Positions 40,021 to 61,230 of a stretch of DNA of 61,230 nucleotides are shown piece by piece. A program made the translations under genes and the position numbers. The stretch spans positions 1-61,230 of the forward strand of contig CATLFX010000011.1 of the NCBI GenBank assembly GCA_949935795.1, given 5' to 3'. The notes below the pieces were generated by a model. That model was not told the origin of the DNA. It saw nothing but the letters and a program-made list of their open reading frames with translations, and ran no database searches. How positions within the stretch are numbered: position 1 is the stretch's first letter; each line of letters opens with the position of its first letter. The stretch comes from an uncultured Oscillospiraceae bacterium. Its GTDB lineage: Bacteria; Bacillota; Clostridia; Oscillospirales; Oscillospiraceae.

Positions 40021-40947
40021 TTACAGCAGTTCTGTCAGGGCGGGGACCACCTTGTTCAGGTCTCCGACAATCCCGTAATCGCAGGCATTGAAAATGGGGG
40101 CGTTCTTATCCTTGTTGATGGCAATGACGGTCTTAGCGCCGTTGATGCCCACCAGGTGCTGAATCTGCCCGGAGATGCCGCAGGCAATGTAGACGTCCGG
40201 TTTAATCATAGCGCCGGAGACGCCCACGTAACGGTTTTTGGCCATCCAATGCTCGCCCTCGGCGATGGGACGGGAACAGGCCATTTCCGCGCCGATTTTC
40301 TTGGCCAGAGCCTCCAGAATAGCGAGATTCTCCTTGGAACCCACGCCCCGCCCGGCGCTGACCACGCGCTTGGCCGCGCCCAGGTCCACGCTCTCGTCCT
40401 CCTTGCGGTTGACCGCTTTGCAGACCACGCCATTGGCGGCGGGCGCTTTGGGCATGTCCTGGACGGACCCGGGGGCGGGGAGGGGCTGGGCGTCAAAGAC
40501 GCCGCTGCCCACCAGGGCGATGCCGGCGGCGGTCTTGATCTGATCGGCGGCGGTGGCCGCGCCGCCGTATACCATGTGGCGGACCACGGCGGTATGGGCG
40601 TCCACCGCCTCAATGGAGGCCGCGTCGCTGCACACGCCCGCGTTCAGGCGGACGGCCAGACGGCCCGCCACGCACTTGCCCCGGCGGGTGGAGCGGATCA
40701 AAATCAAATCGGGGGCCTGCTCAGCGGCCAGCTCGGCCAGGGCGGGGACGTAGTCCTCCACCATGGAGCCCTCCGCCTGCTCGCCCAGCCAGAGCACAGC
40801 GGACGCGTACTGGGCCGTCTGCTCCGCCGCGCTGCGGGGGCCCAGCACCACCGCGACAGTCTCTTCCGCCAGGGTGTTGGCCCCGGAGCACAGCTCGGGC
40901 AGAGCGGACGCCAGCTCGGAAAACACCAAAATTTTGCTCAATTTCAT
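40021..40947 (-). CDS. fixB: Electron transfer flavoprotein alpha subunit, FixB-like
   Basis: A 308-residue EtfA/FixB protein that binds FAD in its C-terminal domain. The FAD motif is VVSAGRGVGSKENL, with later YVGVSGAMIKPDVYIACGIS, GQIQHLVGI, and KNAPIFNACDYGIVGDL. The N-terminal half is degenerate, as in FixB/CaiE. I start at the ATG at 40947 with AAAGGAGG before it. It pairs with the beta subunit upstream and, with FixC and FixX encoded at 45-47 kb, can form a FixABCX complex that reduces quinone and ferredoxin from NADH. Confidence 0.92.
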   Translation of the reverse strand: MKLSKILVFSELASALPELCSGANTLAEETVAVVLGPRSAAEQTAQYASAVLWLGEQAEGSMVEDYVPALAELAAEQAPDLILIRSTRRGKCVAGRLAVRLNAGVCSDAASIEAVDAHTAVVRHMVYGGAATAADQIKTAAGIALVGSGVFDAQPLPAPGSVQDMPKAPAANGVVCKAVNRKEDESVDLGAAKRVVSAGRGVGSKENLAILEALAKKIGAEMACSRPIAEGEHWMAKNRYVGVSGAMIKPDVYIACGISGQIQHLVGINGAKTVIAINKDKNAPIFNACDYGIVGDLNKVVPALTELL

Positions 40948-40966
40948 TGTCAAGTTCCTCCTTTAC

Positions 40967-41734
40967 TCACTGAAGCTCCGTGCGAATGGCGCGGCAGAAT
41001 TCGGCGATCTTGTCGTCGCTGTCGCCCTCCACCAGGACGCACTTGCGCTGGGCCTGGGCGGGGGCCAGCAGGCTGGTGGTCTCCACCGCCCGCCCGGCGG
41101 GCAGCTCCACATCGCCGGAGCCCAGGATAGTGGACGGCTTCTTGCCTGCGCCCAGGATCTCCTTCATGCTGGGCACCCGGGTGACATTGATATCGGCGGT
41201 GACGCTGAGTACGGCGGGGAGGCGGACCTCCAGGGTCTCCACCTCGTCCTCCAGAGTGCGCTCCACGGTCACGCAGCCGTCGCCGGGGGTGATGGCGCTG
41301 ACGCCGTTCAGCGTGGGCACGCCCAGCAGTTCGCCCAGCTGCACGCCCACCTGCTGGGAGTAGAGGTCGCTGGAGCCCTCGCCACAGAGGATCAGGTCCC
41401 ACTCCCCCGCCTTTTTGACCGCGGCGGCCAGCGCCTTGGCGGTGGTAGCGCTGTCCGCCCCCGCCAGGGAGTCGTCCTTTACGGCCAGGTTGCTGCCGGG
41501 ACCCCGGGAGAGGATGCTCTTCTTCATCTTGGAGTTGTCCACCTCGGCGCCGCCCACGGTCAGAGCGGTGACGGCGCCGCCCGCGGCCTCCACCAGCTGG
41601 ACCCCCGCCTCCACGGCGTTGAGGTCGTACTGGCCGATCTTCAGCTCCGCCCGGTCGAAGGACAGAGTCTGGTCCGGCTTGACAACGATGTCCTGTTCAT
41701 CGGGCACGATCTTATAACAGACAAGAATATTCAT
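40967..41734 (-). CDS. fixA: Electron transfer flavoprotein beta subunit, FixA-like
   Basis: A 255-residue EtfB/FixA protein binding AMP or FAD. It starts MNILVCYKIVPDEQDIVVKP, with LSFDRAELKIGQYDLNAVEA, a central LILCGEGSSDLYSQQVGVQL (this position is GKQAIDGD in the EtfB at 60447), and ADINVTRVPSMKEIL. The divergence from the second EtfB points to different partners. It opens the minus-strand fixAB-menA-ubiE-hepT run, and a possible sigma-54 site lies 40-55 bases upstream. Confidence 0.9.
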   Translation of the reverse strand: MNILVCYKIVPDEQDIVVKPDQTLSFDRAELKIGQYDLNAVEAGVQLVEAAGGAVTALTVGGAEVDNSKMKKSILSRGPGSNLAVKDDSLAGADSATTAKALAAAVKKAGEWDLILCGEGSSDLYSQQVGVQLGELLGVPTLNGVSAITPGDGCVTVERTLEDEVETLEVRLPAVLSVTADINVTRVPSMKEILGAGKKPSTILGSGDVELPAGRAVETTSLLAPAQAQRKCVLVEGDSDDKIAEFCRAIRTELQ

Positions 41735-41773
41735 AACATTGCGTCCTTTCTATGAAACGTTGTGTTTGATACC

Positions 41774-41789
41774 TGCAAAGGGCCGGCCG
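41774..41789 (-). promoter_or_regulatory. Possible sigma-54 promoter before fixAB
   Basis: On the minus strand CGGCCG-GCCCT-TTGCA keeps the essential GG and GC at the right 10-base separation but departs from TGGCAC in three positions. It overlaps the 3' end region of the activator gene. It is much weaker than the two sites at 56366 and 56842. Confidence 0.4.
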
Positions 41790-41791: not shown

Positions 41792-43780
41792 TCACTGGCC
41801 GTCGTCCGCCAGCACCTTGATCTGGATGCCCAGCTTGTAGATTTTTCTGTAGAGGGTATTGCGGGAGACGCCCATATCCTTGGCCACCCGGGTCAGGTTT
41901 CCCCGGTGCTTTTCAATCAGGGTGGTAATCAGCTTTTTCTCCCGCTGCTCCCGCTGCTGCTTGGGCGTCAGCCCGGATTCCTCCAAAACAGCCTCCGCCA
42001 CAGGAAGGGGCTGCGCCCCGGCGCAGGACTGGATGTGAGCCGGGAAGGCCTCCACCGTAAGGGGTTTTCCGCCGGCCATAATCAAGGCCTTTTCCATGAC
42101 GTTTTTCAGCTCCCGGACGTTGCCGGGCCAGCTGTAACGGCTGAGGAGCTGCTGAACCTCCGGGGAGAGGGGCGCGGTGGGGATGGACAGGGAGGCCCCC
42201 AGCAGCTCGTTGAAATACTGGGCCAGCAAAATGACGTCCTCCCCGCGCTCCCGGAGCAGGGGAAGCTGGATCTCAATGACGCTGAGGCGGTAGCGCAGGT
42301 CGGAGCGGAATTTTTTCTCTTGGATCAGCTGTTCAATGTCCTGGTTGGTGGCGGCCACGATGCGGGCGTCAAACCGGATCGGCTTGTTGGAGCCGATTCG
42401 GGTGATGGTCTGCTCCTGGAGGACCCTCAGCAGCGTCACCTGCATATCCACCGGCATTTCGCCGATCTCGTCCAGGAACAGGGTGCCGCCGTTGGCGTAC
42501 TCGAATTTGCCCACCGCGCCGGATATGCGGGCCCCGGTGAAGGCGCCGCCCTCGTAGCCAAACAGCTCGCTGGACAGCAGGTCCCGGGGGATCGCGCCAC
42601 AGTTGATGGGCACAAACTCTCCCTTGCGGCCGCTCAGCCGGTGGATCGCCCGGGCCACCACTTCCTTTCCGGTGCCGGTGGCCCCCAGTATGAGGACGTT
42701 GGACTTGTGCCCGGCGATCTTCCGGACAATGCTGTCCACATTGCGCCAGGCCGGGCTCGCGCCCACATAGTCCGCGCTGGTGTCCTGATGGCGGCCCAGC
42801 ACGGGGGGCTCGGCCGTCTGGGGCGCGTCGTCCGGCAGGTCGAAGATCAAAAGATGGTGGCTTATGCCGTTTTGCAGCTGAATTGTCCTGGAGCGCAGCA
42901 GGTGAAGATCCAGGCGCTTGCGCCGCCGGTTGCCCTTGAAGGACACTTCAATGGGCCCCTCCGCCGACTGGGAGGTGTTGAGCAGGGTGCACAGCACGGA
43001 GCGGTCCTTCAGGTATTCCGCCAGGGACTGCCCGGCGTAGTGGTACGACTCATAGCCGGAGACCACCAGCTTACCGGCCTCGTTGGCGGTGAGAATCATA
43101 CCGTCCTGATCCACCACGATCACGGCCAGCTGGGCAATGCGCAGGATGGGGTCGAAAAACGTGGCGGAGGCCAGGTGGGAAAACAGCGTCTGCCGGTCCG
43201 CCAGGTACAGCTCCTTCCAAAGCCGCCCGGCGGCCACACAGATGTCCAGGGCCTCCGGCGGCAGGCTGAGAAAGGGGTCGTTGATGTTCAAAAAGTACCG
43301 CATATCCGGCATTTCCACCGGGGCGGAAACGCCGGAGTAATTCTGGGAGACGGCGCGGTAGTGCTCAAAGCCGTCCACCCGCATGGGTTTCTGCTCGATG
43401 AGGGCCAGTGGAAGATTTCCGTCACCCGTATAGCGCTCGACCACATAGGTGCCCAGGGTGCGGGAATAGACAGACAGGGGCGTGAGCAATTCAAAAACAA
43501 AGCCCTCCGAATCGGCCAGGCTGGCGTTGCAGTTGAAAAGTGTAACCAGATATTGAAGCACCGGCTCCGCGGCCTTCATCAGCTTGTGATAGCGCTTGCG
43601 GCGGGCGGCCAGCGTGATCTCGTCCGCCTTGTCGAAATTGGAGGACCATGGGTCCAGGCCGTATTCCTTGCATCTGAGCCAGGAGCGGGCAATTTCCGGA
43701 CGAAGATGGGTAGCGTCCAAGATATTTTCATTCACAAACTTCTTCCATGCGGAGAGTACTTCTTTCCCGTTGTATTCCAC
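41792..43780 (-). CDS. Sigma-54-dependent activator, AcoR type
   Basis: A protein of about 662 residues. The N-terminal GAF-like sensor region begins with an ARSWLRCKEYGLDP motif as in AcoR, followed by a PAS domain (VIVVDQDGMILTANEAG). The AAA+ domain has Walker A LGATGTGKEVVARAIH, the sigma-54 contact loop GAFTGAR, Walker B GGTLFLDEIGEM and R-finger region RSDLRYRLSV. The Fis-type HTH is NLTRVAKDMGVSRNTLYRKI. I start at the GTG at 43780, preceded by AAGGAGG. It lies 16 bases after rpoN and probably drives the two sigma-54 promoters near 56.4-56.9 kb in response to an unknown small molecule. Confidence 0.9.
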   Translation of the reverse strand: MEYNGKEVLSAWKKFVNENILDATHLRPEIARSWLRCKEYGLDPWSSNFDKADEITLAARRKRYHKLMKAAEPVLQYLVTLFNCNASLADSEGFVFELLTPLSVYSRTLGTYVVERYTGDGNLPLALIEQKPMRVDGFEHYRAVSQNYSGVSAPVEMPDMRYFLNINDPFLSLPPEALDICVAAGRLWKELYLADRQTLFSHLASATFFDPILRIAQLAVIVVDQDGMILTANEAGKLVVSGYESYHYAGQSLAEYLKDRSVLCTLLNTSQSAEGPIEVSFKGNRRRKRLDLHLLRSRTIQLQNGISHHLLIFDLPDDAPQTAEPPVLGRHQDTSADYVGASPAWRNVDSIVRKIAGHKSNVLILGATGTGKEVVARAIHRLSGRKGEFVPINCGAIPRDLLSSELFGYEGGAFTGARISGAVGKFEYANGGTLFLDEIGEMPVDMQVTLLRVLQEQTITRIGSNKPIRFDARIVAATNQDIEQLIQEKKFRSDLRYRLSVIEIQLPLLRERGEDVILLAQYFNELLGASLSIPTAPLSPEVQQLLSRYSWPGNVRELKNVMEKALIMAGGKPLTVEAFPAHIQSCAGAQPLPVAEAVLEESGLTPKQQREQREKKLITTLIEKHRGNLTRVAKDMGVSRNTLYRKIYKLGIQIKVLADDGQ

Positions 43781-43796
43781 AGAAGCCTCCTTCTCT

Positions 43797-45236
43797 CTAC
43801 AATCTCTCCTTCCGGCTGGTTCTCCGGCTGGCGAGCCCAAGTGCCTGACGGTATTTCGTGACGGTGCGCCTGGAAATGCGGTAGCCCTCCGCCTGAAGCG
43901 CGGCGCAGATCTGGGTGTCGTTCAGCGGCGCATCTGGGTCCTGCGCGTGAACCAGCGCCAGAATCCTGGACTTGACCGCCTGCACGGATACCGCGCCGCC
44001 GTCGGTGCCGCAGGAGCCGGTAAAAAATGACTTCAGCGGCCGGATTCCCCAGGGAGTATCGGCGTATTTGTCCTGCGCGGCGCGGCTGACGGTGGAAATG
44101 CTGACGCCCATCTCGCCGGCCATCTCCCGCATGGTCAGCGGGCGCAGGTACCCGGGGCCCTTGAGGAAAAATTCGGGCTGGAGCCGGAGCAGGGCGAGGG
44201 CAAAGCCCCGCAGGGTCTGATGGCGGATGGAAACGCTTTTCATCAGGGCCTTGGCCTCTTTCAGCTTGCCGCTGAGGTAATTCTGCTCCTCCCGCGTCAG
44301 CGCCCCGCACAGGAGCATATCCATATATTCCTGGTTCAGGCACAGGGGATCGTCCGCCTCGCCGCTGATTTGAACGCTGAAACCGCCGGCCTGCCGCCGG
44401 ATGATGAGGTCCGGGATCAGATAGCAGACACTGTCAGGCGGGCCGCCGCTGTTGCCCGGCCTGGGGTCCAGTCCGCGGATATACTGGAACAGAGCCTGTA
44501 TGTCATGCTCTTTCATCTCGTATTTGCGGGCGCACCGGGCGGTCTGGTTCTCGGCCAGCCAGGGGAGGTCCTCCCGAATGATGCGCCGCGCGATCTCCGG
44601 ATAGGGGCAGTCCGCCTCCACTTGGAGGCAGAGGCACTCATAGACGTCCCGGGCGGCGATGCCCCTGGGGACAAAGCTCTGGATCAGGGCCAGCACCCGC
44701 TGGCCCACCGCCGGGGGCGCCTGGTAGTAGCAGCAGATGGTTGGCAGGCCGCCCACAAAATAGCCGCGTTCATCCAGGTTTCCGATGATTTCCCGGCCGA
44801 TGGCCTCTTCCACGGGGGACAGGCGGCACAGCGACAGCTGGAGCTCCAGTGATCCCGTCAGCGTATCCGGCCCAAACATGGTCCCCCGCAGGTTGAACAG
44901 CTCCTCCGGGTCCCGGCCCGGATAATTCATCCATTCCCGCCTCCGGGGCACGGAGCGGATATATTCGCTTTCCGCGCCGTATTCGTCCCCATATTCCCAG
45001 CCTGTGTCCGGCGGGGCGGCTTCGGCCTGCCCGCCGGGAGAAAACAGCTCAAGCATTGGGTTGCCCAGGGCGGCCTCAGCCAGATAGCTCTGCATGGCGG
45101 GCAGGGGCATTGTCAGCAGCTCCACCCCCTGAATGACGGCAGGCATCAGTTTTTGGCGCTGCTTCTGGGTCTGCTGCTGGACCGCGGCCTGCGCCTGCCC
45201 GGTCCCCAGCTGGTGTCGATGCTCCAAACCCCTCAC
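43797..45236 (-). CDS. rpoN: RNA polymerase sigma-54 factor
   Basis: A 479-residue protein with all RpoN parts. Region I is Gln-rich (QKQRQKLMPAVIQGVELLTM). The core-binding region has ERGYFVGGLPTICC-like text, and the HTH is TMREMAGEMGVSISTVSRAA. The RpoN box (SRRTVTKYRQALGL) near the C-terminus recognises the -24 element. The start is either the GTG at 45236 or the TTG at 45227. It has its own sigma-A promoter and continues into the activator gene. Having rpoN inside a catabolic locus suggests local dedication. Confidence 0.93.
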   Translation of the reverse strand: MRGLEHRHQLGTGQAQAAVQQQTQKQRQKLMPAVIQGVELLTMPLPAMQSYLAEAALGNPMLELFSPGGQAEAAPPDTGWEYGDEYGAESEYIRSVPRRREWMNYPGRDPEELFNLRGTMFGPDTLTGSLELQLSLCRLSPVEEAIGREIIGNLDERGYFVGGLPTICCYYQAPPAVGQRVLALIQSFVPRGIAARDVYECLCLQVEADCPYPEIARRIIREDLPWLAENQTARCARKYEMKEHDIQALFQYIRGLDPRPGNSGGPPDSVCYLIPDLIIRRQAGGFSVQISGEADDPLCLNQEYMDMLLCGALTREEQNYLSGKLKEAKALMKSVSIRHQTLRGFALALLRLQPEFFLKGPGYLRPLTMREMAGEMGVSISTVSRAAQDKYADTPWGIRPLKSFFTGSCGTDGGAVSVQAVKSRILALVHAQDPDAPLNDTQICAALQAEGYRISRRTVTKYRQALGLASRRTSRKERL

Positions 45237-45370: not shown

Positions 45371-45658
45371 TCAGCCCATCCGGAAGGAAATGCCGTAGCC
45401 GCTCTGGGGATAGTGCCAGCCCTTGACGACCTTTCCGCCGCTGAGCACGCGGCAGGTTCCGCACTCCAGGCAGCCCAGGTGGTCAAAGGACAGTTTGCCC
45501 TCGGCGTCCAGTTTGTACAGCCCGGCGGGACAGGCCCGGCAGACCCGCTCCACTTCCTGCTTGTCCAGGTATTCCTTGTCCACGTCGATGTGGCTGTTGA
45601 GCTCGTTGGTATTGAACTTGTTGAGCCCCAGCTTATCCTCAATGGTCATTTTAGCCAT
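45371..45658 (-). CDS. fixX: FixX-like ferredoxin
   Basis: A 95-residue ferredoxin-like protein that works with FixC. It has cysteines in VCRACPAGLYKL and HLGCLECGTCRVL, the FixX pattern for one [4Fe-4S] cluster, and the FixX opening IEDKLGLNKFNTNELNSH (cf. CaiX/FixX). AAGGAG precedes the ATG. It is the last gene of the long minus-strand operon, directly after FixC (gap of 37 bases). Confidence 0.92.
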   Translation of the reverse strand: MAKMTIEDKLGLNKFNTNELNSHIDVDKEYLDKQEVERVCRACPAGLYKLDAEGKLSFDHLGCLECGTCRVLSGGKVVKGWHYPQSGYGISFRMG

Positions 45659-46898: not shown

Positions 46899-47681
46899 TT
46901 ATCGGATTCGTTTTGCCTCTGGAGCGGGGTCGGCCGCTCCGGCGTAGGTCTGCACTACGCTGGCGTAGCGGCGGGCCTCGTCGCCCACCACCTCCAGGTC
47001 GGTGTCCATCCAGTTGCGGCGGCGCACGGCCACCAGGGCCCACTCCTTGGCGCTGCCCTTGATGTAGTTTTCCGCCGCCGGGTCGCCCTTGGTCCACAGC
47101 GCGCCGGAGGGCAGGGTGAGCTCCAGATACATGGGGGTGTCTGGCATCTCATACCCGTTGATCCGGTAGGCGAAGGGACGGGCCTGCCAGGACAGGAACA
47201 GGGTGCTGGTGATGCGCTCCCGCACCACCACGTCCAGGCCCAGGGCGTCGTAGATGTCCACCGAGTGGACCCACAGCTCCATCAGCCGGGCGGAGCACAG
47301 GGATTTGGCGGACATGGGCAGGCCGGGGGCCCAGGGAATGCGGTCCTTGGGGTTCTTGTGGAGGAAGGCGTAATCCAGCTTGGTGCGCTCCTCCCGCCAC
47401 CACTGGAGCACCTGGGCGCCGGTGAGGTGCCAGAAGGCGGTGGCGCGGTAGTACTCGTCCTGGCCGGATTCGGCGTCGGCCAGCTGCACCAGGTCCTCCG
47501 CCTCGCCGGCCATCAGCTTGTTGGCGGCGTAGTCGTAAAAGGCGATGTGGATGATAGCGTCCTTGATGTTCCACGGCTCACACCCCGGGAGGGGCATCAG
47601 CCACTGCTCCTCCGTCAGGTCGGCCACCAGGGTGTCCACCTGGCTCTGTTCCGCGATCAGGTCGTTCAAAATCTCTTTCAT
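46899..47681 (-). CDS. TIGR03084-like DinB-fold protein
   Basis: A 260-residue soluble protein resembling the TIGR03084 / mycothiol-dependent maleylpyruvate isomerase N-terminal group. It starts with a DinB-type helix bundle (LIAEQSQVDTLVADLTEEQW then GCEPWNIKDAIIHIAFYDY) carrying possible metal histidines. ARLMELWVHSVDIYDALGL supplies the third histidine and Asp. The C-terminal part is a separate domain. Relatives are known mostly from actinobacteria next to acyl-CoA genes, with no proven reaction. It sits between the acyl-CoA dehydrogenase and fixC in one operon, so a role in the same pathway is inferred. Confidence 0.7.
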   Translation of the reverse strand: MKEILNDLIAEQSQVDTLVADLTEEQWLMPLPGCEPWNIKDAIIHIAFYDYAANKLMAGEAEDLVQLADAESGQDEYYRATAFWHLTGAQVLQWWREERTKLDYAFLHKNPKDRIPWAPGLPMSAKSLCSARLMELWVHSVDIYDALGLDVVVRERITSTLFLSWQARPFAYRINGYEMPDTPMYLELTLPSGALWTKGDPAAENYIKGSAKEWALVAVRRRNWMDTDLEVVGDEARRYASVVQTYAGAADPAPEAKRIR

Positions 47682-47711: not shown

Positions 47712-48863
47712 TTAGCGGTACTTTTTCAGGATGGCCCGGCCCGCCACATGGATCATGACCTCGTCCGTGCCGCCGCCGATGCGGTGGACCCGGGAGTCCA
47801 CCCACAGCCGGGAGATGCGGCAGTCCGTGGTGTAGCCGATGCCGCCCATGATCTGCATGGCGTCGTCCACCACCTCGTTGACGGAGCGGGCGCAGTACAG
47901 CTTTGTGAGCGCGGAGTCGATCTGAACGGGGATCTTATTGTCGATCTCCCAGGCGGTCTTGTAGATCAGGTTGCGCATATTTTCGATCTTCAGCTGCATC
48001 ATGGTGATCTTTTCCTGGATCAGCTGGTTGGCGCCGATGGGCTTGCCGAACTGGACCCGCTGGTTGGCGTAGCGGGCGGCGTCCTCAAAGGCGCACTCGG
48101 CCCAGCCCAGGCAGTTGGCGGCGATGAGCAGCCGCTCCACCTCGAAGTTGATCATGGCCTGCATGAAGCCGTTGCCCTCCACGCCCACCAGGTCCTTCTC
48201 CTCCAGCTCCACGTCCTCCATGTACACCTCGCAGGTGTCCATCATGTGCCAGCCGATCTTCTCCAGCCGCTCCACCTTCACGCCGGGGGCGTTCATGGGC
48301 ATCCACCACATGGAGAAGGCGTTTTTCTTGGTGGCGTCGGGGGCCTCGTCGGCGTTCCGGGCCAGGCAGAGCATGTACTTGGCCCTGGCGGCGTTGCTCA
48401 TGAAGGTCTTGTGGCCGTTGATGTAGACCTTGCCGTCTTTGCGCTTGAAGGTGGTGGCCAGGGAGCTGCTGTCGGAGCCCGCCTGGGGCTCGGTGAAGCC
48501 CAGGACGAAGCCCACCCGGCCCGCCATGATCTCCTCCATGCACTGCTGCTTCTGTTCCTCGTTGCCGAACTCCAGCATGTCGGCGATGGACAGCGCCTGC
48601 CCAAAGACGAAGTGGGGGCCGCCGTTCTTGCAGATTTCCTCCGCCACCAGCATCAGGGTGACGGTGTCCACCGGGGTGCCGCCGTACTCCTCGGGCACGC
48701 CCAGCATGCCGAAGCCCGCCTCGGTGAAGGCGTCCACAAAGGCCTGGGGATACTCGCCCTTGGCGTTGCACTCCTTCATGTACTCCTCGGTGCAGCTGCG
48801 GGCCATGACCTCGCGCAGGCTCTCCAGTAGCAGTTCCTGTTCCTCTGTCAGTCTGAAATCCAT
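47712..48863 (-). CDS. Acyl-CoA dehydrogenase/reductase, CaiA-like
   Basis: A 383-residue FAD enzyme of the acyl-CoA dehydrogenase superfamily. Closest in wording to crotonobetainyl-CoA reductase CaiA: the start MDFRLTEEQELLLESLRE, the FAD/substrate segment FVLGFTEPQAGSDSSSLATT, ECAFEDAARYANQRVQFGKP and QLIQEKITMMQLKIENM, and the end IGGGTDEVMIHVAGRAILKKYR. With FixABCX as electron donor it would reduce an enoyl-CoA in vivo. The substrate is unknown. AAGGAG precedes the ATG, and the gap to the CoA ligase is 15 bases. Confidence 0.88.
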   Translation of the reverse strand: MDFRLTEEQELLLESLREVMARSCTEEYMKECNAKGEYPQAFVDAFTEAGFGMLGVPEEYGGTPVDTVTLMLVAEEICKNGGPHFVFGQALSIADMLEFGNEEQKQQCMEEIMAGRVGFVLGFTEPQAGSDSSSLATTFKRKDGKVYINGHKTFMSNAARAKYMLCLARNADEAPDATKKNAFSMWWMPMNAPGVKVERLEKIGWHMMDTCEVYMEDVELEEKDLVGVEGNGFMQAMINFEVERLLIAANCLGWAECAFEDAARYANQRVQFGKPIGANQLIQEKITMMQLKIENMRNLIYKTAWEIDNKIPVQIDSALTKLYCARSVNEVVDDAMQIMGGIGYTTDCRISRLWVDSRVHRIGGGTDEVMIHVAGRAILKKYR

Positions 48864-50480: not shown

Positions 50481-50484
50481 AGCC

Positions 50485-53416: not shown

Positions 53417-53448
53417 ATTGTCTCCTCCTTTTTGATCCGGGCTGCCCA

Positions 53449-54738
53449 TTAGAGGGCACTCATCGCCAGCATTCCGTCCTTGCCCAGGGCGGCCAGGTCC
53501 GCCTCGGACAGGATGGGAAGCAGCTTTTTCACCAGGCCGGGGGAGGGCGTGCCGTCCACCAGGAACATAGCCTTCAAAATCTCCTCCAGCAGCAGGGGGT
53601 ATTTGGTAAACATGCGGCGGTTCTCCATAAACTTGGGGGCGTTCTTATACTGCCGCAGGTCCTTCATGACAAAGGTGCCCTCCAGCGCGGTCTTGTACAC
53701 CGACAGGGTGGACTTGGAGTAGTCGCCCTTCCGCTTGGCGTACAGCACGGCGTTGGCAGCCTGGAGGCCCGACTCGATGGCCAGATCCATGCCCCGCACC
53801 ATGTAGCCCAGGTTGATGACAAACCCGGCGGCGTCGCCGGCCACCAGCACGCCGTCTCCGTAGAGCTGGGGGATCATGTGGAAGCCGCCCTCTGGCACCA
53901 GGTGGGCGGAGTACTCCGTGGTCTGCCCCCCGGCGATCAGGGGACGGATAACGGGATGCTCCTTAAAGCGGTCCACCATGTCCACCACGCTGACGCCGGA
54001 ATAATCAATGTCGCCCACGGTGGTGACGATGCCCAGGGACACGCTGTCCTTGTTGGTGTAGAGGAAGCCGCCGCCGATGTTGCCCGCGGTGGGGTCACCC
54101 ACGAACATCCAGGCCGCGCCATCGCTGCCCTCCAGGCCGAAACGGTCCCGGATGCGCTCCTCGCCCAGGGTGATGACCTCTTTCGCGCCCACGGCCACCT
54201 CCATGGGGTCCAGTTCCTTTTTCAGCCCCAGCTTTTGGGACAGCAGAGAGTTGACGCCGTCGGCCAGAATGACCACGTCGGCCTCCATCTCCTCCTCCCC
54301 GGCCACGATGCCGCAGACCTTGCCGTCCCGGACAATCATGTCGTCCACCAGGATGCCGCAGACGTACATCGCGCCCTGCTCCTCCGCCTCGGAGGCCAGC
54401 CAGCGGTCGAATTTGCTGCGCAGGACGGAATAGGAGGCCGCCCCGGGCGCGCCCAGCGCCGGGCTGCCATACTCGAAGGTGGTATTGCCCGCGCTGGACA
54501 GGAAGGAGATCCGCTCCTTGGTGATCTTGCGCTCCACCGGGGCCCGGGAGGCAAAATCGGGGATGATTTTTTCCAGGCTGTGTCCGTAAAGGCGGCCGCC
54601 GGTCATATTCTTGCAACCGCAGGTATCCCCGCGCTCAATGACCAGGACCTCCAGCCCGGCCTTGGCCAGCACATAGGCCGCCGTTGAGCCGGCAAGTCCG
54701 CCTCCGACGATAATAGCGTCAAACCTGTCTTCACTCAT
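53449..54738 (-). CDS. FixC-like flavoprotein, second copy
   Basis: A 429-residue paralogue of the FixC at 45696: DAIIVGGGLAGSTAAYVLAK, CGCKNMTGGRLYGHSLEK, DVVILADGVNSLLSQK and VLVAGDAAGFVINLGYMVR. It keeps the longer C-terminus with TPSPGLVKKLLPILSEADLAALG but has no FixX gene next to it. Two FixC genes in a single operon are unusual; the second may serve the reductase encoded just downstream or the second EtfB at 60447. GCGAGG precedes the ATG. Confidence 0.88.
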   Translation of the reverse strand: MSEDRFDAIIVGGGLAGSTAAYVLAKAGLEVLVIERGDTCGCKNMTGGRLYGHSLEKIIPDFASRAPVERKITKERISFLSSAGNTTFEYGSPALGAPGAASYSVLRSKFDRWLASEAEEQGAMYVCGILVDDMIVRDGKVCGIVAGEEEMEADVVILADGVNSLLSQKLGLKKELDPMEVAVGAKEVITLGEERIRDRFGLEGSDGAAWMFVGDPTAGNIGGGFLYTNKDSVSLGIVTTVGDIDYSGVSVVDMVDRFKEHPVIRPLIAGGQTTEYSAHLVPEGGFHMIPQLYGDGVLVAGDAAGFVINLGYMVRGMDLAIESGLQAANAVLYAKRKGDYSKSTLSVYKTALEGTFVMKDLRQYKNAPKFMENRRMFTKYPLLLEEILKAMFLVDGTPSPGLVKKLLPILSEADLAALGKDGMLAMSAL

Positions 54739-54817
54739 GTCTCATACCTCGCTTTTTCGTTAAGATGGGTCCGCGTCTTTCCATGATGCAAAAACCGCGC
54801 CGCAGCGGGCGGCCCTG

Positions 54818-56272
54818 TTAAACAGCGCCGAACAGCACCCGGCCAATGGTCAGGAACACCGCGCAGGCGATAAGCCAGATGGCAACAGCCAGGGGAATGC
54901 TGAATTTGTAGATGTCCTTGGGCGTCACCCAGTCGGTCATGCCGTGCATCACCGCCGCGATGGGGTTGGCCGGGGGCAGGACGATGGACACGTTGGAGGC
55001 CACGTGGATGCAGCAGGCCAGCAGGCCGGGGTGTATGCCCAGGCTGGCGCTGAAGGGGGCGGCGATCACGTAGATAATCATGGCCACGGTGCCGTTGAGC
55101 ATCAGGTTGGTCATCACCACGCACAGCAGGCAGGTGAGGAACACAAACAGGATCAGGCCGCCCTTGCCGCTGAACAGCGGGGTCATGAAGTCGGTGAGCA
55201 TCTGGCTGATGCCCAGGCTCTCGTCGGCCAGCGCATAAGTCAGCGGCATTCCCACGGTCAGCAGGTAGAACACCGGCCAGGCCACGCCCTCTTTGGTGGC
55301 CTCCAGAATGTCGGCGAAGGGGCTGCCGTCCTTGCGGCGCAGGAAGACCATCACGGTCAGCAGCACCAGCACGATGCCGGAGGAGCCCAGCTGGGTGAGG
55401 ATCTGTCCGATCCAGGTGGAGGAAAAGGCGCTCTGCACGATGAACATGACGATCATAAGCACCGTCAGCCCCAGCACCTGCTTTTGATAAGGAGTCATGG
55501 CCTCGTGGGTCCCGAAGTCATAGTCGGCTTTCACCCGCTCCACATCAGGCCGGAACAGGAAGCGGACCAGCACCAGGTAAACCAGAATGGCGCCGAAGCC
55601 CATGCAGAAGGAGGTCAGCACATAGCTGACAAAGGAGACGGTGACGCCGGTGGCCTCCACCATGCCCACCAGCACCGAGCCGGGGACGCGGAAGGGGAAC
55701 AGGGAAAAGCCCATCAGGCCCGCCATGGCGATGCCCACGATCATCATGACCGGGTATGCCTCGCTCTTTTTGTAGCCGATGTCCTTGGCGTACTTGGTGA
55801 AGAGGGCCCAGACGATCAGGCAGGCCGGCGTCATGCTCACCACCGCGCCCACAATGTACGCCGCGGAGAGGAACAGGAAGGAAATAATGTAAGGCTTCCC
55901 CTTGGCGAATTTAAGCCCGATGATGGCCTGAACCATGATGTCGGACACCCCGGACTTGGTGACGAAGTAGGCGAAGATGCAGATCAGCATGATATACACG
56001 TTGGTGCCGTCGCCCCAGCCCGCCGAGATCAAGCCGCTGACTGTATAGTAGTCAGTGAAGCCCAGCAGGAGGATGCCCAGGAAGCTGGGCCAGATCACGT
56101 CCACCGTGGACCAGAGGAACAGCAGCCCCAGATAGATGCCCAAGATCTGCATCCCCACCGGCGTGACCGTGCTGATCGGGGGGAGCAGCGGGAACAGCAC
56201 CATGATGGCCACTCCGATAATGGATAAAATGTAGTACCTGATGTTTTTTTGTTTTGCGGCAGTAGTATCCAT
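54818..56272 (-). CDS. SLC13/DASS-family carboxylate transporter
   Basis: A permease of about 484 residues with 11-12 helices. It resembles the divalent anion:sodium symporter (SLC13) group, with the two-fold pattern visible in VVSMTPACLIVWALFTKYAK and the C-terminal ASNVSIVLPPANPIAAVM (equivalent to the SNT/P-loop of DASS proteins). It is the first gene of the sigma-54-controlled minus-strand operon and probably imports the organic acid used by it. The start is the ATG at 56272 with a weak GGATGTGA; the longer frame to 56320 overlaps the leader. Confidence 0.78.
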   Translation of the reverse strand: MDTTAAKQKNIRYYILSIIGVAIMVLFPLLPPISTVTPVGMQILGIYLGLLFLWSTVDVIWPSFLGILLLGFTDYYTVSGLISAGWGDGTNVYIMLICIFAYFVTKSGVSDIMVQAIIGLKFAKGKPYIISFLFLSAAYIVGAVVSMTPACLIVWALFTKYAKDIGYKKSEAYPVMMIVGIAMAGLMGFSLFPFRVPGSVLVGMVEATGVTVSFVSYVLTSFCMGFGAILVYLVLVRFLFRPDVERVKADYDFGTHEAMTPYQKQVLGLTVLMIVMFIVQSAFSSTWIGQILTQLGSSGIVLVLLTVMVFLRRKDGSPFADILEATKEGVAWPVFYLLTVGMPLTYALADESLGISQMLTDFMTPLFSGKGGLILFVFLTCLLCVVMTNLMLNGTVAMIIYVIAAPFSASLGIHPGLLACCIHVASNVSIVLPPANPIAAVMHGMTDWVTPKDIYKFSIPLAVAIWLIACAVFLTIGRVLFGAV

Positions 56273-56365
56273 TGTCTCACATCCAATCTCTTCTCGTTTT
56301 TTGCGGGTGCCTTGGGACAATGCGGCAGGCGCGTGACACCCTTTGATTCTTACGCTTTTTACTTA

Positions 56366-56381
56366 TGCAAAAATCGTGCCA
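56366..56381 (-). promoter_or_regulatory. Sigma-54 promoter of the minus-strand operon
   Basis: On the minus strand TGGCACGATTTTTGCA is a perfect match to TGGCAC-N5-TTGCA, with GG and GC separated by 10 bases. It lies about 95 bases before the transporter ATG and is the near mirror image of the site at 56842. Confidence 0.92.
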
Positions 56382-56841: not shown

Positions 56842-56857
56842 TGGCACGGTTTTTGCA
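56842..56857 (+). promoter_or_regulatory. Sigma-54 promoter of the plus-strand operon
   Basis: TGGCACGGTTTTTGCA matches TGGCAC-N5-TTGCA perfectly and differs from the minus-strand site at 56366 in one base of the spacer. It lies about 50 bases before the ATG at 56910. Confidence 0.93.
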
Positions 56858-56909: not shown

Positions 56910-57458
56910 ATGAAAGTGATTGCAGGCGGAAAAATGCGTACCCTTCCAGACGCCCCCGCCGCCACCTTGGAGGAGCGGGTCCAGCGGCTGGAGGACGCGG
57001 CCTCTATCCGCGAGATTCTGTACCACTACACCAGGTCGGTGGACCGGGGAGATTTTGAGGGGATCGGTTCCTGCTACATGGAGGACGGATGCTTCCTGGC
57101 GAGCGACCATGCCAAGCCCATCTCCGGCAGGGAAAACATTTTAGGCGTTTTTGGGAAGCTGATGGACCCGGAAATCAAGACAAGCGCCCATTTCATCACC
57201 AATCAGCAGATTCATTTCGTGACGAAGGACGAGGCGCTGGTATTCGCCTATTTTTACGCCAACAAGAGCTTTCGCTCTCAGCGGGAGGATGAACTCACCT
57301 GGGGCGGCTATGAGCTGCGGGTGTGCCGCGATACCGATGGGGAGTGGCGCATCAAGACACATAAGGTTTTCATGACGCGGCAGGACGGCTCCCTCACCGG
57401 CCGTTGTGAGGAACAATGGAAACGGCCATGGCCGCCGGAGCCGGAGCACCTGAACTGA
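56910..57458 (+). CDS. SnoaL-like protein resembling BaiE
   Basis: A 182-residue NTF2/SnoaL-fold protein, the fold of bile acid 7-alpha-dehydratase BaiE and scytalone dehydratase. The N-terminal helix LEERVQRLEDAASIREILYH leads into YTRSVDRGDFE. Tyr40, Asp45 and His94 (TSAHFITNQQ) fall where, from my memory of the BaiE sequence, Tyr30, Asp35 and His83 lie. I cannot place an equivalent of BaiE's active-site arginine. It could dehydrate a CoA-bound hydroxy acid. GAAAGGAG precedes the ATG. It is the first gene of the plus-strand sigma-54 operon, so a shared pathway role is likely. Confidence 0.72.
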   Translation: MKVIAGGKMRTLPDAPAATLEERVQRLEDAASIREILYHYTRSVDRGDFEGIGSCYMEDGCFLASDHAKPISGRENILGVFGKLMDPEIKTSAHFITNQQIHFVTKDEALVFAYFYANKSFRSQREDELTWGGYELRVCRDTDGEWRIKTHKVFMTRQDGSLTGRCEEQWKRPWPPEPEHLN

Positions 57459-57500
57459 CCGGAGGCCAAGCATCCTATTTTTGAGAAGGGACGATTGTTT

Positions 57501-58718
57501 ATGAAGCACAATGAAATTCCTGTTTTTGGCAATCTTCAGGGTGTTCGGGTCCTGAGCTCGGGGACCAACATCGCGGGTCCGGTGGCCTGCAGCCTGCTCG
57601 GGGAGCAGGGCGCGGACGTGATCCAGATCGAGAGCACCGCCGCCCATGACATCCTGCGCAACATCGGCGAGGCGTGGACGGTGGAGCACCGCAACAACCG
57701 CACCATCGCCCTCAACATCCGCTCGGAGCAGGGCGAGGCCGTGCTGAAAAAGCTCGTCGCCAAGGCGGACATCCTGGTGGAGTCCTCCAAGGGCGGCACC
57801 TGGGCCAAGTGGGGCCTCACCGACGAGGTGCTGTGGGAGATCAACCCCAAGCTGGTCATCGCTCACGTGTCCGGGTACGGCCAGAGCGGCGACCCGGAGT
57901 ACGTGTCCAGAGGCTCCTTCGACCCCATCGGGCAGGCCTTCAGCGGCTTCTTGGCCGTCAACGGAATGCCCGACCCGGAGCCTCCCCTCCACGCCAAGCC
58001 CTATACCTGCGACTATATCACCGCCCTGTTCACCGCCTGGGCCGTCACCGCCGCCCTCTACCGGGCCCGGGAGACCGGAAAGGGCGAGAGCGTGGACGTG
58101 GCCCAGTATGAGGTGATGGCCCGCATCCAGGCCGACTATATGATGGATGGCCTCAACAAGGGCAGGCAGGCCCCCCGCATGGGCATCTACGGCAACGCCG
58201 TGTGCGCCCTGCCCAACGTCCAGCGCTGCAAGGACGGCAATTACATCATGACCGGGATCGGCGGCGTGCCCGTGTTCCGCAGCCTGGAGAAACTGCTGGG
58301 CCTGGAGAGCGATCCGGACTTCGCCGAGCCCCACGGCACCATTGACCGGGACGAGCATCCCCGCAGCGACAAGATCGTCAAGGCCATGGCGGATTTCTGC
58401 GCCTCCCACACGGCGGAGGAGGCCAACGACCTGCTTAACCAGTACAAGGTCCCGTGCAGCGTGGTCATGACCTATGAGATGATGGCCAAGCACCCCCACT
58501 ACCAGGCCCGGGAGACCTTTACCACCTGGCACGACCCCATCACCGAACGGGACGTGAAGGGTATCAACACCATTCCCGTTTTCAAGCAGAACCCCAGCCG
58601 GATCTTCCGCGGCGGCCCCACCTACGGCATGGACAACGAGGATATTCTGGCCGAGTTCGGTTACTCCGAGGCTGAAATTGCGGACATGTACGACAAAGGG
58701 GTCATCAAAAAGGCGTAA
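57501..58718 (+). CDS. CaiB/BaiF-type CoA-transferase
   Basis: A 405-residue class III CoA-transferase. The family text is clear: VRVLSSGTNIAGPVACSLLG, ADILVESSKGGTWAKWGL, VIAHVSGYGQSGDPEYVSRG with SFDPIGQAFSGFLAVNG, the catalytic-region aspartate in GKGESVDVAQYEVMAR, and the end FRGGPTYGMDNEDILAEFGY. The wording seems closer to BaiF than to CaiB, judged from memory. It would move CoA between a product and an incoming substrate, saving ATP after the ligase has primed the cycle. The ATG at 57501 follows AGAAGGGA. Confidence 0.92.
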   Translation: MKHNEIPVFGNLQGVRVLSSGTNIAGPVACSLLGEQGADVIQIESTAAHDILRNIGEAWTVEHRNNRTIALNIRSEQGEAVLKKLVAKADILVESSKGGTWAKWGLTDEVLWEINPKLVIAHVSGYGQSGDPEYVSRGSFDPIGQAFSGFLAVNGMPDPEPPLHAKPYTCDYITALFTAWAVTAALYRARETGKGESVDVAQYEVMARIQADYMMDGLNKGRQAPRMGIYGNAVCALPNVQRCKDGNYIMTGIGGVPVFRSLEKLLGLESDPDFAEPHGTIDRDEHPRSDKIVKAMADFCASHTAEEANDLLNQYKVPCSVVMTYEMMAKHPHYQARETFTTWHDPITERDVKGINTIPVFKQNPSRIFRGGPTYGMDNEDILAEFGYSEAEIADMYDKGVIKKA

Positions 58719-58776
58719 CGCAAAACCGGCGCGCCCTGGTAAAATCCAGTAAAATAAATATAAAGGAGAACTAATC

Positions 58777-60036
58777 ATGGCAACTGCGAAGAAAAGTAAT
58801 TACCCGTGGGTAATCGTTGCTACCGTTCTGTTCTGGTCTGGACTGATTTTCGGCCTGATGGGCAACACCGTCGGTCTGTTCTACTCCCCCGTGTCCCAGG
58901 AGATGGGTTGGACCATGACCCAGACCTCCTTCTTCATGACCATCTATCCCATCGTGGCCGGCGTATGCTCTCCCCTGGCCGGCAAGGTGTTCAATTCCTA
59001 CGGCAAGATTCAGTATGTGCTGACCGCCGTGGCCGCCATCTGGTGCGGCACCTACATCTGGTCCTCCACCTTTAACGCCCTGTGGCAGTGGACGGTCTAC
59101 GGCGTCATCACCGGCGTTCTGGGCGGCTTCCTGATGTACATCCCCGTTCCGCTGATTATCAACAACTGGTTTACCAAGCAGAAGGGCATCGCCCTGGGCA
59201 TCGCCGCCGCCTTTGTCAACGTGGTCCCGGCCATTTTCAACCCTATCATCACTCAGCAGATCGCCACCTACGGCTGGCGGTCGGTCCGTCTGGTCATCGG
59301 CATCGTCCTGTTGATCATCGTGGTGCCCATCACCCTGATCTTTGTCCGCAAGTTCCCCTCCGATAAGGGTCTGGAGCCCTGGGGCGCCGAGGAAACTGAC
59401 GGCGCTGCCGCCGGCGGCACCAATAAGCTCACCGGCGTGAAGGCCAGCGTGGCCATGAAGTCCCCCGCGTTCTGGCTGGCTCTGCTGGCTGCGGCCTGCC
59501 TGGTGTCCTGCGCCACCATCAACCAGCGCATCGCCAGCCTGGCCACCGCCCGCAACTTCGACCCCGTGGCCATCGGCATGGCTTCCTCGATCATCATGGT
59601 GGGCGGCATCCTGGGCAAGTTCATCCTGGGCTTCGTCCGCGACAAGACCAACAATTCCGTCATCACCGGCCTGACCTGCGCGGCCTTCGGCCTCATCGGC
59701 TGTGTGCTGTTCCTGACCGTGGGCACCACCGGCTTGGCTATCTTCTACATCAGCATCCTGATCTACGGCTTTGGCTACGCCGGCCTCACCGTGGCCCCTC
59801 CCATGATCGTGGAGGACGCCTTCGGCCCCAAGAACTTCGGCCAGATCTACGCCAACGTCTCCGTCGTCACCTGTGTGGCCAGCTCGGTGACTTCCCTGCT
59901 CTACGCCCAGATCATTGACCGCACCGGCGGCTATGAGGGCTGCTTCATTCTGGCCATCGTGTTCTACGCCATCTTTGCCGTGTGCGTGCCGCTGATTGTG
60001 GGCATCGGCAAAAAGCTTCCCCGTGAGGCGGACTAA
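58777..60036 (+). CDS. MFS transporter
   Basis: A 419-residue, 12-helix major facilitator with a central loop around residues 200-225. It is of the OxlT / monocarboxylate type: early NTVGLFYSPVSQEMGWTMTQ, PLAGKVFNSYGK (loop 2-3), and the second-half GKFILGFVRDKTNNS. BaiG in bile acid operons is also an MFS protein, but similarity beyond the superfamily is not evident. It probably takes up the pathway's acid or exports the product. AAAGGAG precedes the ATG. It lies in the plus-strand sigma-54 operon. Confidence 0.88.
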   Translation: MATAKKSNYPWVIVATVLFWSGLIFGLMGNTVGLFYSPVSQEMGWTMTQTSFFMTIYPIVAGVCSPLAGKVFNSYGKIQYVLTAVAAIWCGTYIWSSTFNALWQWTVYGVITGVLGGFLMYIPVPLIINNWFTKQKGIALGIAAAFVNVVPAIFNPIITQQIATYGWRSVRLVIGIVLLIIVVPITLIFVRKFPSDKGLEPWGAEETDGAAAGGTNKLTGVKASVAMKSPAFWLALLAAACLVSCATINQRIASLATARNFDPVAIGMASSIIMVGGILGKFILGFVRDKTNNSVITGLTCAAFGLIGCVLFLTVGTTGLAIFYISILIYGFGYAGLTVAPPMIVEDAFGPKNFGQIYANVSVVTCVASSVTSLLYAQIIDRTGGYEGCFILAIVFYAIFAVCVPLIVGIGKKLPREAD

Positions 60037-60059
60037 TCGTTCAGATTGGAGGTTTATTT

Positions 60060-60383
60060 ATGGAAACTTTGCTGGAAGTAACCGAAAAGCTCAAGAATTT
60101 GACTGAGACCGGCCTGGACCGCGCCAAGGATTATGGCGAGATCGCCAAGCTCAGCGTGCTCAACCGCGCCAAGGAAGAGACGGTGAACAAGCTCTATGCC
60201 GAGCTGGGCAGGCGCTATTACCAGGCCCATGGGCTGGCCCCCGAGGCGGGCTATGAGGCTGTGTGCGACAAAATCACGGACCTCAAGGCCAAGATTGAAT
60301 CCAACAAGAACCGTATCACTGAGTTGAAGATCAACGCTGTGGTGGACGACGAGGTGTGTGAGCCTGACGAAGCGGAGGGCTGA
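60060..60383 (+). CDS. Small helical protein of unknown function
   Basis: A 107-residue, charged, almost wholly helical protein. It has heptad-like text (LLEVTEKLKNLTETGLDRAK, then AKLSVLNRAKEETVNKLYAE), a YYQAHG turn and a second coiled helix (CDKITDLKAKIESNKNRITE). No cysteine pairs or membrane segment are seen. Similar small proteins occur in many Firmicutes, without known function. TTGGAGG precedes the ATG. It lies between the MFS gene and etfB. Confidence 0.7.
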   Translation: METLLEVTEKLKNLTETGLDRAKDYGEIAKLSVLNRAKEETVNKLYAELGRRYYQAHGLAPEAGYEAVCDKITDLKAKIESNKNRITELKINAVVDDEVCEPDEAEG

Positions 60384-60446
60384 TTCCCAGCAGTACCCGG
60401 CCCCGCCAAGTGCCATGAATAAAACCTTTGAAAGGATGCGGAAATC

Positions 60447-61230
60447 ATGAACATACTCGTCTGTGTCAAGCAGGTGCCTGACACCACTGAGATCAAGATC
60501 GACCCGGTGAAGAACACCCTCATCCGCGACGGCGTGCCCAGCATTGTCAACCCCTTCGACGGCTACGCCCTGGAGGCCGCCGCCCGCATCAAGGACAAGA
60601 ACCCCGATACCAAAATCGTGGTGCTGTCCATGGGTCCCCCGCAGGCCACCGCCGCGCTGAAGGAGTGCCTGGCCATTGCCGCCGACAAGGCGTATCTGGT
60701 GTCCGGCCGCACCTTCGGCGGCTCCGACACCCTGGCCACCAGCTACATCCTGTACAACGCGGTGAAGAAGGTGGAAGAGCTTGAGGGCGCGAAGTTTGAC
60801 GCCATCTTCTGCGGCAAGCAGGCCATCGACGGCGACACCGCCCAGGTTGGCCCCGAGCTGGCCGAGCACCTGGGCTATCCCCAGGTCACCTACGGCCTGG
60901 AGGCCGAGGTGGAGGTTGATATGCTCAAGGTGAAGAAGGAGGTCGAGGAGGGCGTCGAGGTCATCGGCGTCAAGTTCCCCTGCCTGGTCACCTACACCAA
61001 GCCCGCCTGGGACCCCCGGTACCCCACCATCAAGCGGAAGATGGCCGCCAACAAGGCGGAGATCCCCGTGCTGGGCGACGACGCTTTCCCGGACATCGAC
61101 ACCACCCGCATTGGCCTGAAGGGCTCTCCCACCAACGTGAAAAAGACCTTCGTGCCCCAGAAGAAGACCGGCGGCGTGAAGATCAAGGAGGAGGACAACG
61201 CCGCCTCCGCCAAGAAGCTGTTTGAGCTGC
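60447..61230 (+). CDS. etfB: Electron transfer flavoprotein beta subunit (partial)
   Basis: 261 codons up to the window edge, no stop. It is of the Bcd/CarD-associated bifurcating EtfB class: MNILVCVKQVPDTTEIKIDP, RDGVPSIVNPFDGYALEAA, GSDTLATSYIL, FDAIFCGKQAIDGDTAQVGP and KRKMAANKAEIPVLGDDAF. It differs clearly from the FixA at 40967. AAAGGATG precedes the ATG. An etfA should follow beyond the window. It gives the locus a second electron-transfer flavoprotein, perhaps for the CaiA-like dehydrogenase. Confidence 0.93.
   Translation, partial: MNILVCVKQVPDTTEIKIDPVKNTLIRDGVPSIVNPFDGYALEAAARIKDKNPDTKIVVLSMGPPQATAALKECLAIAADKAYLVSGRTFGGSDTLATSYILYNAVKKVEELEGAKFDAIFCGKQAIDGDTAQVGPELAEHLGYPQVTYGLEAEVEVDMLKVKKEVEEGVEVIGVKFPCLVTYTKPAWDPRYPTIKRKMAANKAEIPVLGDDAFPDIDTTRIGLKGSPTNVKKTFVPQKKTGGVKIKEEDNAASAKKLFEL

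Follow-up and report, generated by a model that had tools for sequence, protein, structure and literature searches.

Contig C11 (CATLFX010000011.1) of an uncultured Oscillospiraceae bacterium, all 61,230 nucleotides of which we used and which we call the window, belongs to a 2.24 Mb metagenome-assembled genome (MAG; 69.7% complete) and carries two divergent operons in which known kinds of enzymes are joined into a conserved, mostly sigma-54–driven unit that is apparently undescribed (we found no earlier description of this cluster in the open-licence literature). Our preferred reading, to which we would give a probability of about 0.68, is that this locus is a conserved module under sigma-54 control through which an imported carboxylic acid would be used, by way of coenzyme A (CoA) thioesters, as an electron sink. 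The sequence itself shows which genes are conserved together, where the promoter sites lie, that the sigma factor RpoN is linked to the cluster, and to which family or fold each protein belongs; the substrate and the reductive direction of the pathway are what we infer from them. A first-pass annotation of the same DNA had proposed a single conserved CoA-based unit, neither a carnitine (cai) nor a bile acid (bai) operon, with its own sigma-54 system, and that outline has held.

The genes of the minus strand follow one another nearly without gaps from 56320 down to 37318, in the order SLC13 transporter, FixC2, old-yellow-enzyme (OYE)–type reductase, crotonase, CoA ligase, YdiO-type dehydrogenase, TIGR03084 protein, FixC1, FixX, RpoN, sigma-54 activator, FixA, FixB, menA, ubiE, and a hepT-like gene. 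The divergent plus-strand operon holds SnoaL, a type III CoA-transferase, an MFS transporter, and a second EtfB-like open reading frame (ORF), which lies where the contig ends (Table 1). Every gene type named in the first-pass annotation can be located in 40021–61230, and what it overlooked were the TIGR03084 gene (46899–47681) and the neighboring menA–ubiE–hepT genes (37318–40016).

Do these genes belong together? We compared 27 loci that carry a full orthologue of the reductase (53–78% identical; L031–L056 and L059, 23 of them from an alignment-based scan of genome contigs and four from a separate set; several are short contigs) with 17 control loci, each centered on a distant OYE gene (15 plus L057 and L058, at 28–30%), counting a match to a window protein at >0.5 bits per residue. 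(L060 and L061, which hold reductase ends only, stand outside the 27, and L121, at G464:C2:1–15000 and not shown to flank the cluster, was also unused.) Crotonase is found in 26 of the 27 loci, the dehydrogenase and the CoA-transferase in 24 each, TIGR03084 in 22, and the ligase in 21; then come FixC (19), MFS (18), FixX (17), the activator (13), FixB (10), and FixA (7), and the rarest are RpoN and SLC13 (6 each), SnoaL (5), ubiE and hepT (4 each), and menA (3). At the same threshold, every count in the 17 controls is zero, that of the OYE itself included. At a laxer E of 1e-8, the OYE appears in 17/17 controls (25–31%), L057 has matches to the ligase (30%) and, in part, to the CoA-transferase (30%), and L102 to the activator (40%) and, in part, to ubiE (35%); crotonase, dehydrogenase, TIGR03084, FixC, SnoaL, RpoN, and menA are all at 0/17. 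The pairwise distances of the core proteins are correlated (Mantel r 0.58–0.86, p 0.001, n 21–24). The neighborhood is conserved beyond chance. The joint presence of reductase, SnoaL, and CoA-transferase, which had been suggested as the signature to look for, is not supported, because SnoaL passes in so few loci; the stable core is crotonase, dehydrogenase, CoA-transferase, TIGR03084 protein, and ligase. The seeming lack of FixAB in Adlercreutzia is an edge effect, since L110, L111, and L112 have fixA directly past the activator, with an exact sigma-54 site ahead of it (fixB is called next in L110 and L111). The menA–ubiE–hepT genes adjoin the cluster in L035, L036, L038, and L053 also, and two type III CoA-transferases are common in these loci, where the window has one.

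The cluster is found in at least two phyla. Outside the genome itself, the 40 relatives offer no better reductase match than one of 31% identity (E 1.8e-73), and a related dehydrogenase (1e-60) is present in just 2 of the genus's 42 genomes, its own counted, so possession of the locus does not typify the genus. Of 398 genomes drawn from the phylum, eight gave reductase matches at 1e-85, the window's own genome being among those listed; among them, three other genomes hold real orthologues (59–62%, one genome twice), and four matches reach merely 32–35%. A single-protein scan of genome contigs found no relative, nor was one found in the viral contigs scanned. The alignment-based scan of genome contigs gave 27 loci of its own, the 23 with a full reductase at ≥53% among them, and these come from Oscillospiraceae and similar MAGs (four at 76–78%, one at 54%), Hungatella, Actinomycetales, Propionibacteriaceae, Gordonibacter, Adlercreutzia, Slackia, other Eggerthellaceae, Syntrophomonas, and Peptococcaceae.

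The second support for a unit is its regulation. The promoter pattern TGGCACN5TTGC has two exact matches in the window, against 0.30 expected, and these two head the two divergent operons. Sites with two mismatches are rarer across the window than chance would have them (43 vs. 78), so we put weight only on the exact ones; at the position equivalent to the weaker site before fixC2, however weak that site is here, L035–L039 and L060 have an exact or one-mismatch site. Together the 27 loci hold 42 exact sites, spread over 18 of them, where dinucleotide shuffling gives a mean of 1.65 and a maximum of 4; 15 control loci have a single exact site among them, with 0.95 expected. Actinobacteria are commonly described as lacking sigma-54. 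Among 119 genomes of Eggerthellaceae (phylum Actinomycetota, the family of Adlercreutzia), RpoN is found in 28 and TIGR03084 (E 1e-30) in 14, and all 14 of the latter have RpoN, with the two genes ∼1–2 kb apart in 13 and on different contigs in one (hypergeometric 6.8e-11, a figure that ignores kinship). The other half of the 28 RpoN-bearing genomes give no TIGR03084 match at 1e-30, which indicates other sigma-54 loci in the family. The window's RpoN is the sole RpoN found in its 70%-complete MAG. Within the genus, RpoN passes its cut-off in 22 of 42 genomes, its own counted (21 of the 41 others), and only one of those 41 has the related dehydrogenase, in a genome without RpoN; RpoN is common in the genus, so in Clostridia it does not belong to the cluster alone. 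The only RpoN of G162, like that of G423, sits far from the cluster. RpoN and the cluster are thus firmly linked in Eggerthellaceae, and in Clostridia the link is no more than local. With an RpoN that passes its equivalog model, perfect −24/−12 sites ahead of both divergent operons, and the co-occurrence in Eggerthellaceae, the suggestion that the locus has its own sigma-54 system is borne out at the level of sequence.

What do the enzymes look like? The reductase lies far below the curated models for BaiCD (282 vs. 825), bilirubin reductase (293 vs. 750), and mycofactocin-associated OYE (339 vs. 793), and by sequence it is a separate OYE subfamily and not BaiCD; the gene that had been called BaiCD-type at 51338–53416 is indeed there, at 51338–53449, and has to lose that name. 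Its two nearest solved relatives, 2-naphthoyl-CoA reductase (NCR) and the 2,4-dienoyl-CoA reductase of Escherichia coli, both use CoA thioesters. The former is the best solved relative (6qkg; PMC6502838), and it has the FMN, 4Fe-4S, and FAD layout in common with the window reductase at just 266 bits. The FMN barrel domain of the OYE family is present, and the proton-donating tyrosine is not: Gly190 stands at the position of Tyr197 of 2-naphthoyl-CoA reductase and of the matching tyrosine of 2,4-dienoyl-CoA reductase, a residue called invariant in OYE members in PMC6502838. Glycine takes its place in 28/28 sequences, the window's counted, and all 28 retain the GWHE histidine and the four 4Fe-4S cysteines. 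The subfamily may rely on a different donor, or its reaction may require no donor at all, as when a hydride is transferred and a leaving group departs. Other tyrosine-less OYE enzymes may exist, bilirubin reductase being a candidate.

The dehydrogenase had been labeled CaiA-like; it fails the CaiA model (433 vs. 540) and passes that of YdiO (PRK12341, 660 vs. 537), and its E243 is identical in 27/27 aligned rows, YdiO and CaiA included. Sequence matches between SnoaL and the PDB are weak, so a fold comparison was used, which gives the BaiE/LinA/scytalone-dehydratase fold with Y/D/H conserved; the protein is a probable dehydratase. The TIGR03084 protein has no PDB sequence relative at E 0.01 and 15% identity to the mycothiol-dependent maleylpyruvate isomerase (2nsf); mycothiol synthesis is not known from Clostridia. 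In the class of Actinotalea, a TIGR03084-like match is found in 159 of 394 genomes (389 bits in Actinotalea, 195 bits in the best other), and 9 of 29 fetched loci (with flanks of ∼1.5 kb) adjoin a dehydrogenase, crotonase, or ligase gene, neighbors that are too weak for naming the reaction. The CoA-transferase, put earlier at 57501–58718 and called BaiF-like, is present at 57495–58718 and is better named otherwise, since its nearest model is CaiB (389.5 vs. 413). The SLC13 ORF scores 39.9 against TIGR00785, under the cut-off of 198.6, and the true start of the crotonase is probably inside its ORF, as homology starts near residue 54–60.

If we put these parts together, a plausible pathway can be drawn. 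The SLC13 and MFS carriers would move substrate and product; the ligase would prime the acid, and the type III CoA-transferase would then hand CoA from product to incoming acid. SnoaL and the crotonase would remove or shift hydroxyls and double bonds, to which the TIGR03084 protein might add a further isomerization or elimination, and the tyrosine-less OYE enzyme and the YdiO-type dehydrogenase would reduce the dienoyl- or enoyl-CoA. The genes for FixA, FixB, FixC, and FixX are all present, and FixABCX would link NADH, ferredoxin, and menaquinone to the dehydrogenase; the activator would sense the acid and fire the RpoN promoters. Because FixABCX would feed the dehydrogenase, the acid would serve as electron acceptor, and menaquinone is probably part of the electron supply besides FixABCX. 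The reductive direction is suggested by three things: neither a thiolase nor a 3-hydroxyacyl-CoA dehydrogenase is among the ORFs scanned in 40–61 kb, a lack that suits an electron sink more than complete β-oxidation; the OYE and SnoaL parts; and the precedent of carnitine.

What, then, might the acid be? We tentatively put forward a cyclic polyhydroxy (hydroaromatic) acid such as shikimate, reduced toward a cyclohexanecarboxylate, a lead that is more likely wrong than right. The gene order in E. coli K-12 is ydiN-ydiB-aroD-ydiF-ydiO-(ydiP)-ydiQRST-fadK, with ydiB a quinate/shikimate dehydrogenase, and in Streptomyces a route leads from shikimate to cyclohexanecarboxyl-CoA; this gene order and this route, along with the dehydratase-like and dienoyl-CoA-reductase–like parts, are what point to a hydroaromatic acid. 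A more ambitious and more doubtful form of the idea is that the locus lets anaerobes, in the gut and elsewhere, respire hydroaromatic acids from plants (shikimate, or quinate once converted): CoA thioesters would be dehydrated and reduced by turns until cyclohexanecarboxylate is reached, the tyrosine-less OYE would reduce without the usual donor, and the cluster would have brought sigma-54 into Eggerthellaceae as its dedicated switch. The conversion of quinate and shikimate from the diet to cyclohexanecarboxylate, from which urinary hippurate is formed, is an old observation on gut microbes, and the cluster is present in cultured Adlercreutzia, Slackia, and Gordonibacter. Were the substrate hydroaromatic, genes could be assigned to this conversion by gut microbes and a function suggested for the unexplained ydi genes of E. 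coli; it would also show sigma-54 working in an actinobacterial family and an OYE subfamily without the standard catalytic residue. A type B carboxylesterase lies near SnoaL in three gut MAG loci (L036:5859–7424, L037:1160–2656, and L038:4772–6295; PF00135 tested on L036), which weakly fits an ester such as chlorogenate. We did not use as evidence the transcriptome of a shikimate producer (PMC4015609), where ydiQ, ydiR, ydiS, and ydiT are up in growth-phase comparisons without a non-producer control. Neither PMC3423039 nor PMC9962212, nor a word search of PMC7355428, yielded anything about function.

Several observations weigh against all of this and should be put on the table together. A shikimate-dehydrogenase–like gene lies on another contig or >70 kb off in 14/14 genomes with a known cluster contig (19 were searched), which speaks against quinate as direct substrate, and aroD of E. 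coli is a housekeeping gene, so its adjacency to ydi genes may be chance. The next-best solved relatives of the reductase include amine (histamine and trimethylamine) dehydrogenases, and, lacking the tyrosine of ordinary ene reduction, the OYE may do something else. SnoaL and menA pass in only 5 and 3 of the 27 loci. The nine loci without an exact promoter include all five from Actinomycetales and Propionibacteriaceae, and no RpoN was found in G453 and G454, the two genomes searched among these five loci. Finally, YdiO-type enzymes with FixABCX could oxidize acyl-CoA into menaquinone instead. Taken as a reading in its own right, this reversal, in which the YdiO-type enzyme dehydrogenates acyl-CoA and FixABCX passes the electrons to menaquinone, seems to us unlikely: FixC, menA, ubiE, and hepT do lie in a single run, and crotonase and ligase are parts of β-oxidation too, but the lack of a thiolase and a 3-hydroxyacyl-CoA dehydrogenase among the scanned ORFs tells against it, and an OYE-family reductase with a dehydratase-type SnoaL would suit reduction better.

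Table 1. Genes and promoter sites of the locus, in window coordinates
Feature	Position	Strand	Support
SLC13/DASS-like carboxylate transporter, minus operon gene 1	54818..56320	-	CitMHS PF03600 38.9 vs. cut-off 31.9; start codon uncertain
FixC2/YdiS-type flavoprotein	53449..54738	-	PRK10015 534 vs. cut-off 466; 52% to YdiS
OYE-family 4Fe-4S flavoprotein reductase without proton-donor tyrosine (Gly190)	51338..53449	-	PF00724 163 bits
Crotonase-family protein	50485..51417	-	PF00378 171 bits
AMP-forming acyl-CoA ligase	48879..50510	-	PF00501 261 bits
YdiO-type acyl-CoA dehydrogenase	47712..48863	-	PRK12341 660 vs. cut-off 537; 55% to YdiO, 45% to CaiA
TIGR03084 protein, maleylpyruvate-isomerase fold	46899..47681	-	TIGR03084 302 vs. 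curated cut-off 248
FixC1, shorter FixC paralogue, 393 aa	45696..46877	-	
FixX ferredoxin-like protein	45371..45658	-	NF011993 95.7 bits, E 1.5e-27, under cut-off 166; 48% to FixX and YdiT
RpoN, sigma-54	43797..45236	-	TIGR02395 319 vs. 277
Sigma-54-dependent activator with Fis-type HTH	41792..43840	-	PF00158, PF02954
FixA/YdiQ (EtfB)	40967..41734	-	PRK12342 342 vs. cut-off 338
FixB/YdiR (EtfA)	40021..40953	-	PF00766, PF01012; 46% to FixB
menA, ubiE/menG, polyprenyl diphosphate synthase (hepT-like), immediately past FixAB	37318..40016	-	
SnoaL_4 protein, probable dehydratase	56910..57458	+	
Type III CoA-transferase, CaiB-like	57495..58718	+	PF02515 317 bits; PRK03525 389.5 vs. 413; CaiB 1xk6 298 bits
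MFS transporter, perhaps for carboxylates	58777..60036	+	PF07690; lactate and bile-salt carrier models matched, all under cut-off
Second EtfB-like ORF, incomplete at contig end	60447..61229	+	27% to YdiQ; 51% to L039:18023-18781
Sigma-54 promoter TGGCACGATTTTTGC, 46 bp upstream of SLC13 ORF	56367..56381	-	0 mismatches
Sigma-54 promoter TGGCACGGTTTTTGC, 53 bp upstream of SnoaL gene	56842..56856	+	0 mismatches
Weaker sigma-54-like site CGGCGCGGTTTTTGC, 49 bp upstream of FixC2	54788..54802	-	2 mismatches

Some smaller features of the locus and its relatives may be recorded here. Between the divergent promoters, at 56543–56667, are A/T-rich repeats (AAAATGACACAG, AAAATGATACAG, and variants) that could be activator sites or chance. 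FixC1 (393 aa) is without the C-terminal part of FixC2 (429 aa), and L039 likewise holds two FixC-type genes. In G162 the YdiO-type dehydrogenase is present twice (L031:12681–13832 and 18137–19288; 79% and 80% identical to that of the window), and a sigma-54 site precedes each copy, with one mismatch in one case and none in the other. The same genome has a separate metallo-β-lactamase protein that overlaps a ligase gene (L117:12212–14766). Two actinomycetotal loci (L041:12793–15435 and L045:12771–15626) have a CoA ligase ORF that extends into a C-terminal HxHxDH part, metallo-β-lactamase–like by eye. About 9 kb from the Gordonibacter cluster, L118:9646–12528 carries a second dehydrogenase (54% to the window's) with its own FixAB pair, and directly behind the cluster of G423 (L114:1061–5779), an exact sigma-54 site stands ahead of a set of molybdopterin oxidoreductase, ferredoxin, and NrfD. 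Elsewhere in the window, 34761–36989 encodes an acyltransferase domain fused to an alanine-racemase domain, which we take to resemble a VanT-type membrane racemase, and the opposite contig end (172–5227) has amidohydrolase and molybdenum hydroxylase (xanthine-dehydrogenase type) genes.

How does the locus compare with what is known? The cai and fix genes of E. coli (caiTABCDE and fixABCX) have in common with it the CoA-transferase, CoA ligase, crotonase, acyl-CoA dehydrogenase, and FixABCX, and one might see here an extended cai operon for a carnitine-like betaine. The CoA-transferase (40% to CaiB and near the cut-off) and the dehydrogenase (45% to CaiA) lean that way, as does the bbu cluster of Emergencia timonensis (PMC8364193), which pairs two type III CoA-transferases, as many loci here do, with an acyl-CoA dehydrogenase. 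We consider this reading improbable. Identities to CaiA–D are 30–45%, and the CaiA, CaiB, and CaiC models are all under their cut-offs; the carriers in 54818–60036 are CitMHS-like and MFS, with no compared window protein matching CaiT and no BCCT carrier seen. The locus adds an OYE, SnoaL, TIGR03084, and sigma-54 control, and none of the first three is listed in the cai/fix stretch of E. coli. As for bbu itself, its six listed genes (PMC8364193) contain no OYE, crotonase, FixABCX, or sigma-54 factor and do contain a betaine/carnitine/choline carrier and a thioesterase; its combination of betaine carrier, ferredoxin, and thioesterase beside two CoA-transferases is not that of the window.

A bile acid or steroid pathway related to bai is less probable again, indeed very unlikely. 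The bai operon has in common with the locus an OYE-family enzyme, a SnoaL fold, a CoA ligase, a type III CoA-transferase, and an MFS carrier. The BaiE-like dehydratase fold is truly there, and the window's MFS protein matches a bile-salt carrier weakly. Against this, the reductase is far under the BaiCD cut-off, no short-chain dehydrogenase/reductase, and with it no BaiA-type hydroxysteroid dehydrogenase, is among the scanned ORFs, the locus has FixABCX, a dehydrogenase, and sigma-54, and orthologous clusters occur in Actinotalea, Ancrocorticia, Syntrophomonas, and Peptococcaceae records, by taxon not typical gut lineages. The steroid and betaine substrates proposed at first pass thus have no specific support, neither a BCCT carrier nor a hydroxysteroid dehydrogenase being among the ORFs scanned in 40021–61230. 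That the genes are unrelated neighbors met by chance in one MAG, as the two genomes in 42 might hint, is hardly credible given a common core around 27 orthologues in at least two phyla, its absence from 17 controls at that threshold, and correlated distances.

Two further systems resemble the locus in part. The nearest described gut cluster that we found is the equol cluster of Eggerthellaceae (PMC8898433, seen in part), which combines a reductase, DZNR, with FixABCX. The gene lists there (gene lists being all that is compared) include DDRC, DHDR, THDR, devR, and hydEFG and name no CoA enzymes, whereas the locus has CoA enzymes and RpoN. DZNR is a member of the OYE family. The other is the ydiF-ydiO-ydiP-ydiQRST-fadK stretch of E. 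coli, the function of which, to our knowledge, is not established (its genes are annotated "putative"). It has YdiF and YdiP, and no OYE, SnoaL, TIGR03084, RpoN, or CaiB-type transferase is listed in it; what it has in common with the locus is the YdiO-type dehydrogenase, the FixABCX-type YdiQRST, and an acyl-CoA ligase, and the YdiO, YdiQ, and YdiS models are all passed by the window's proteins.

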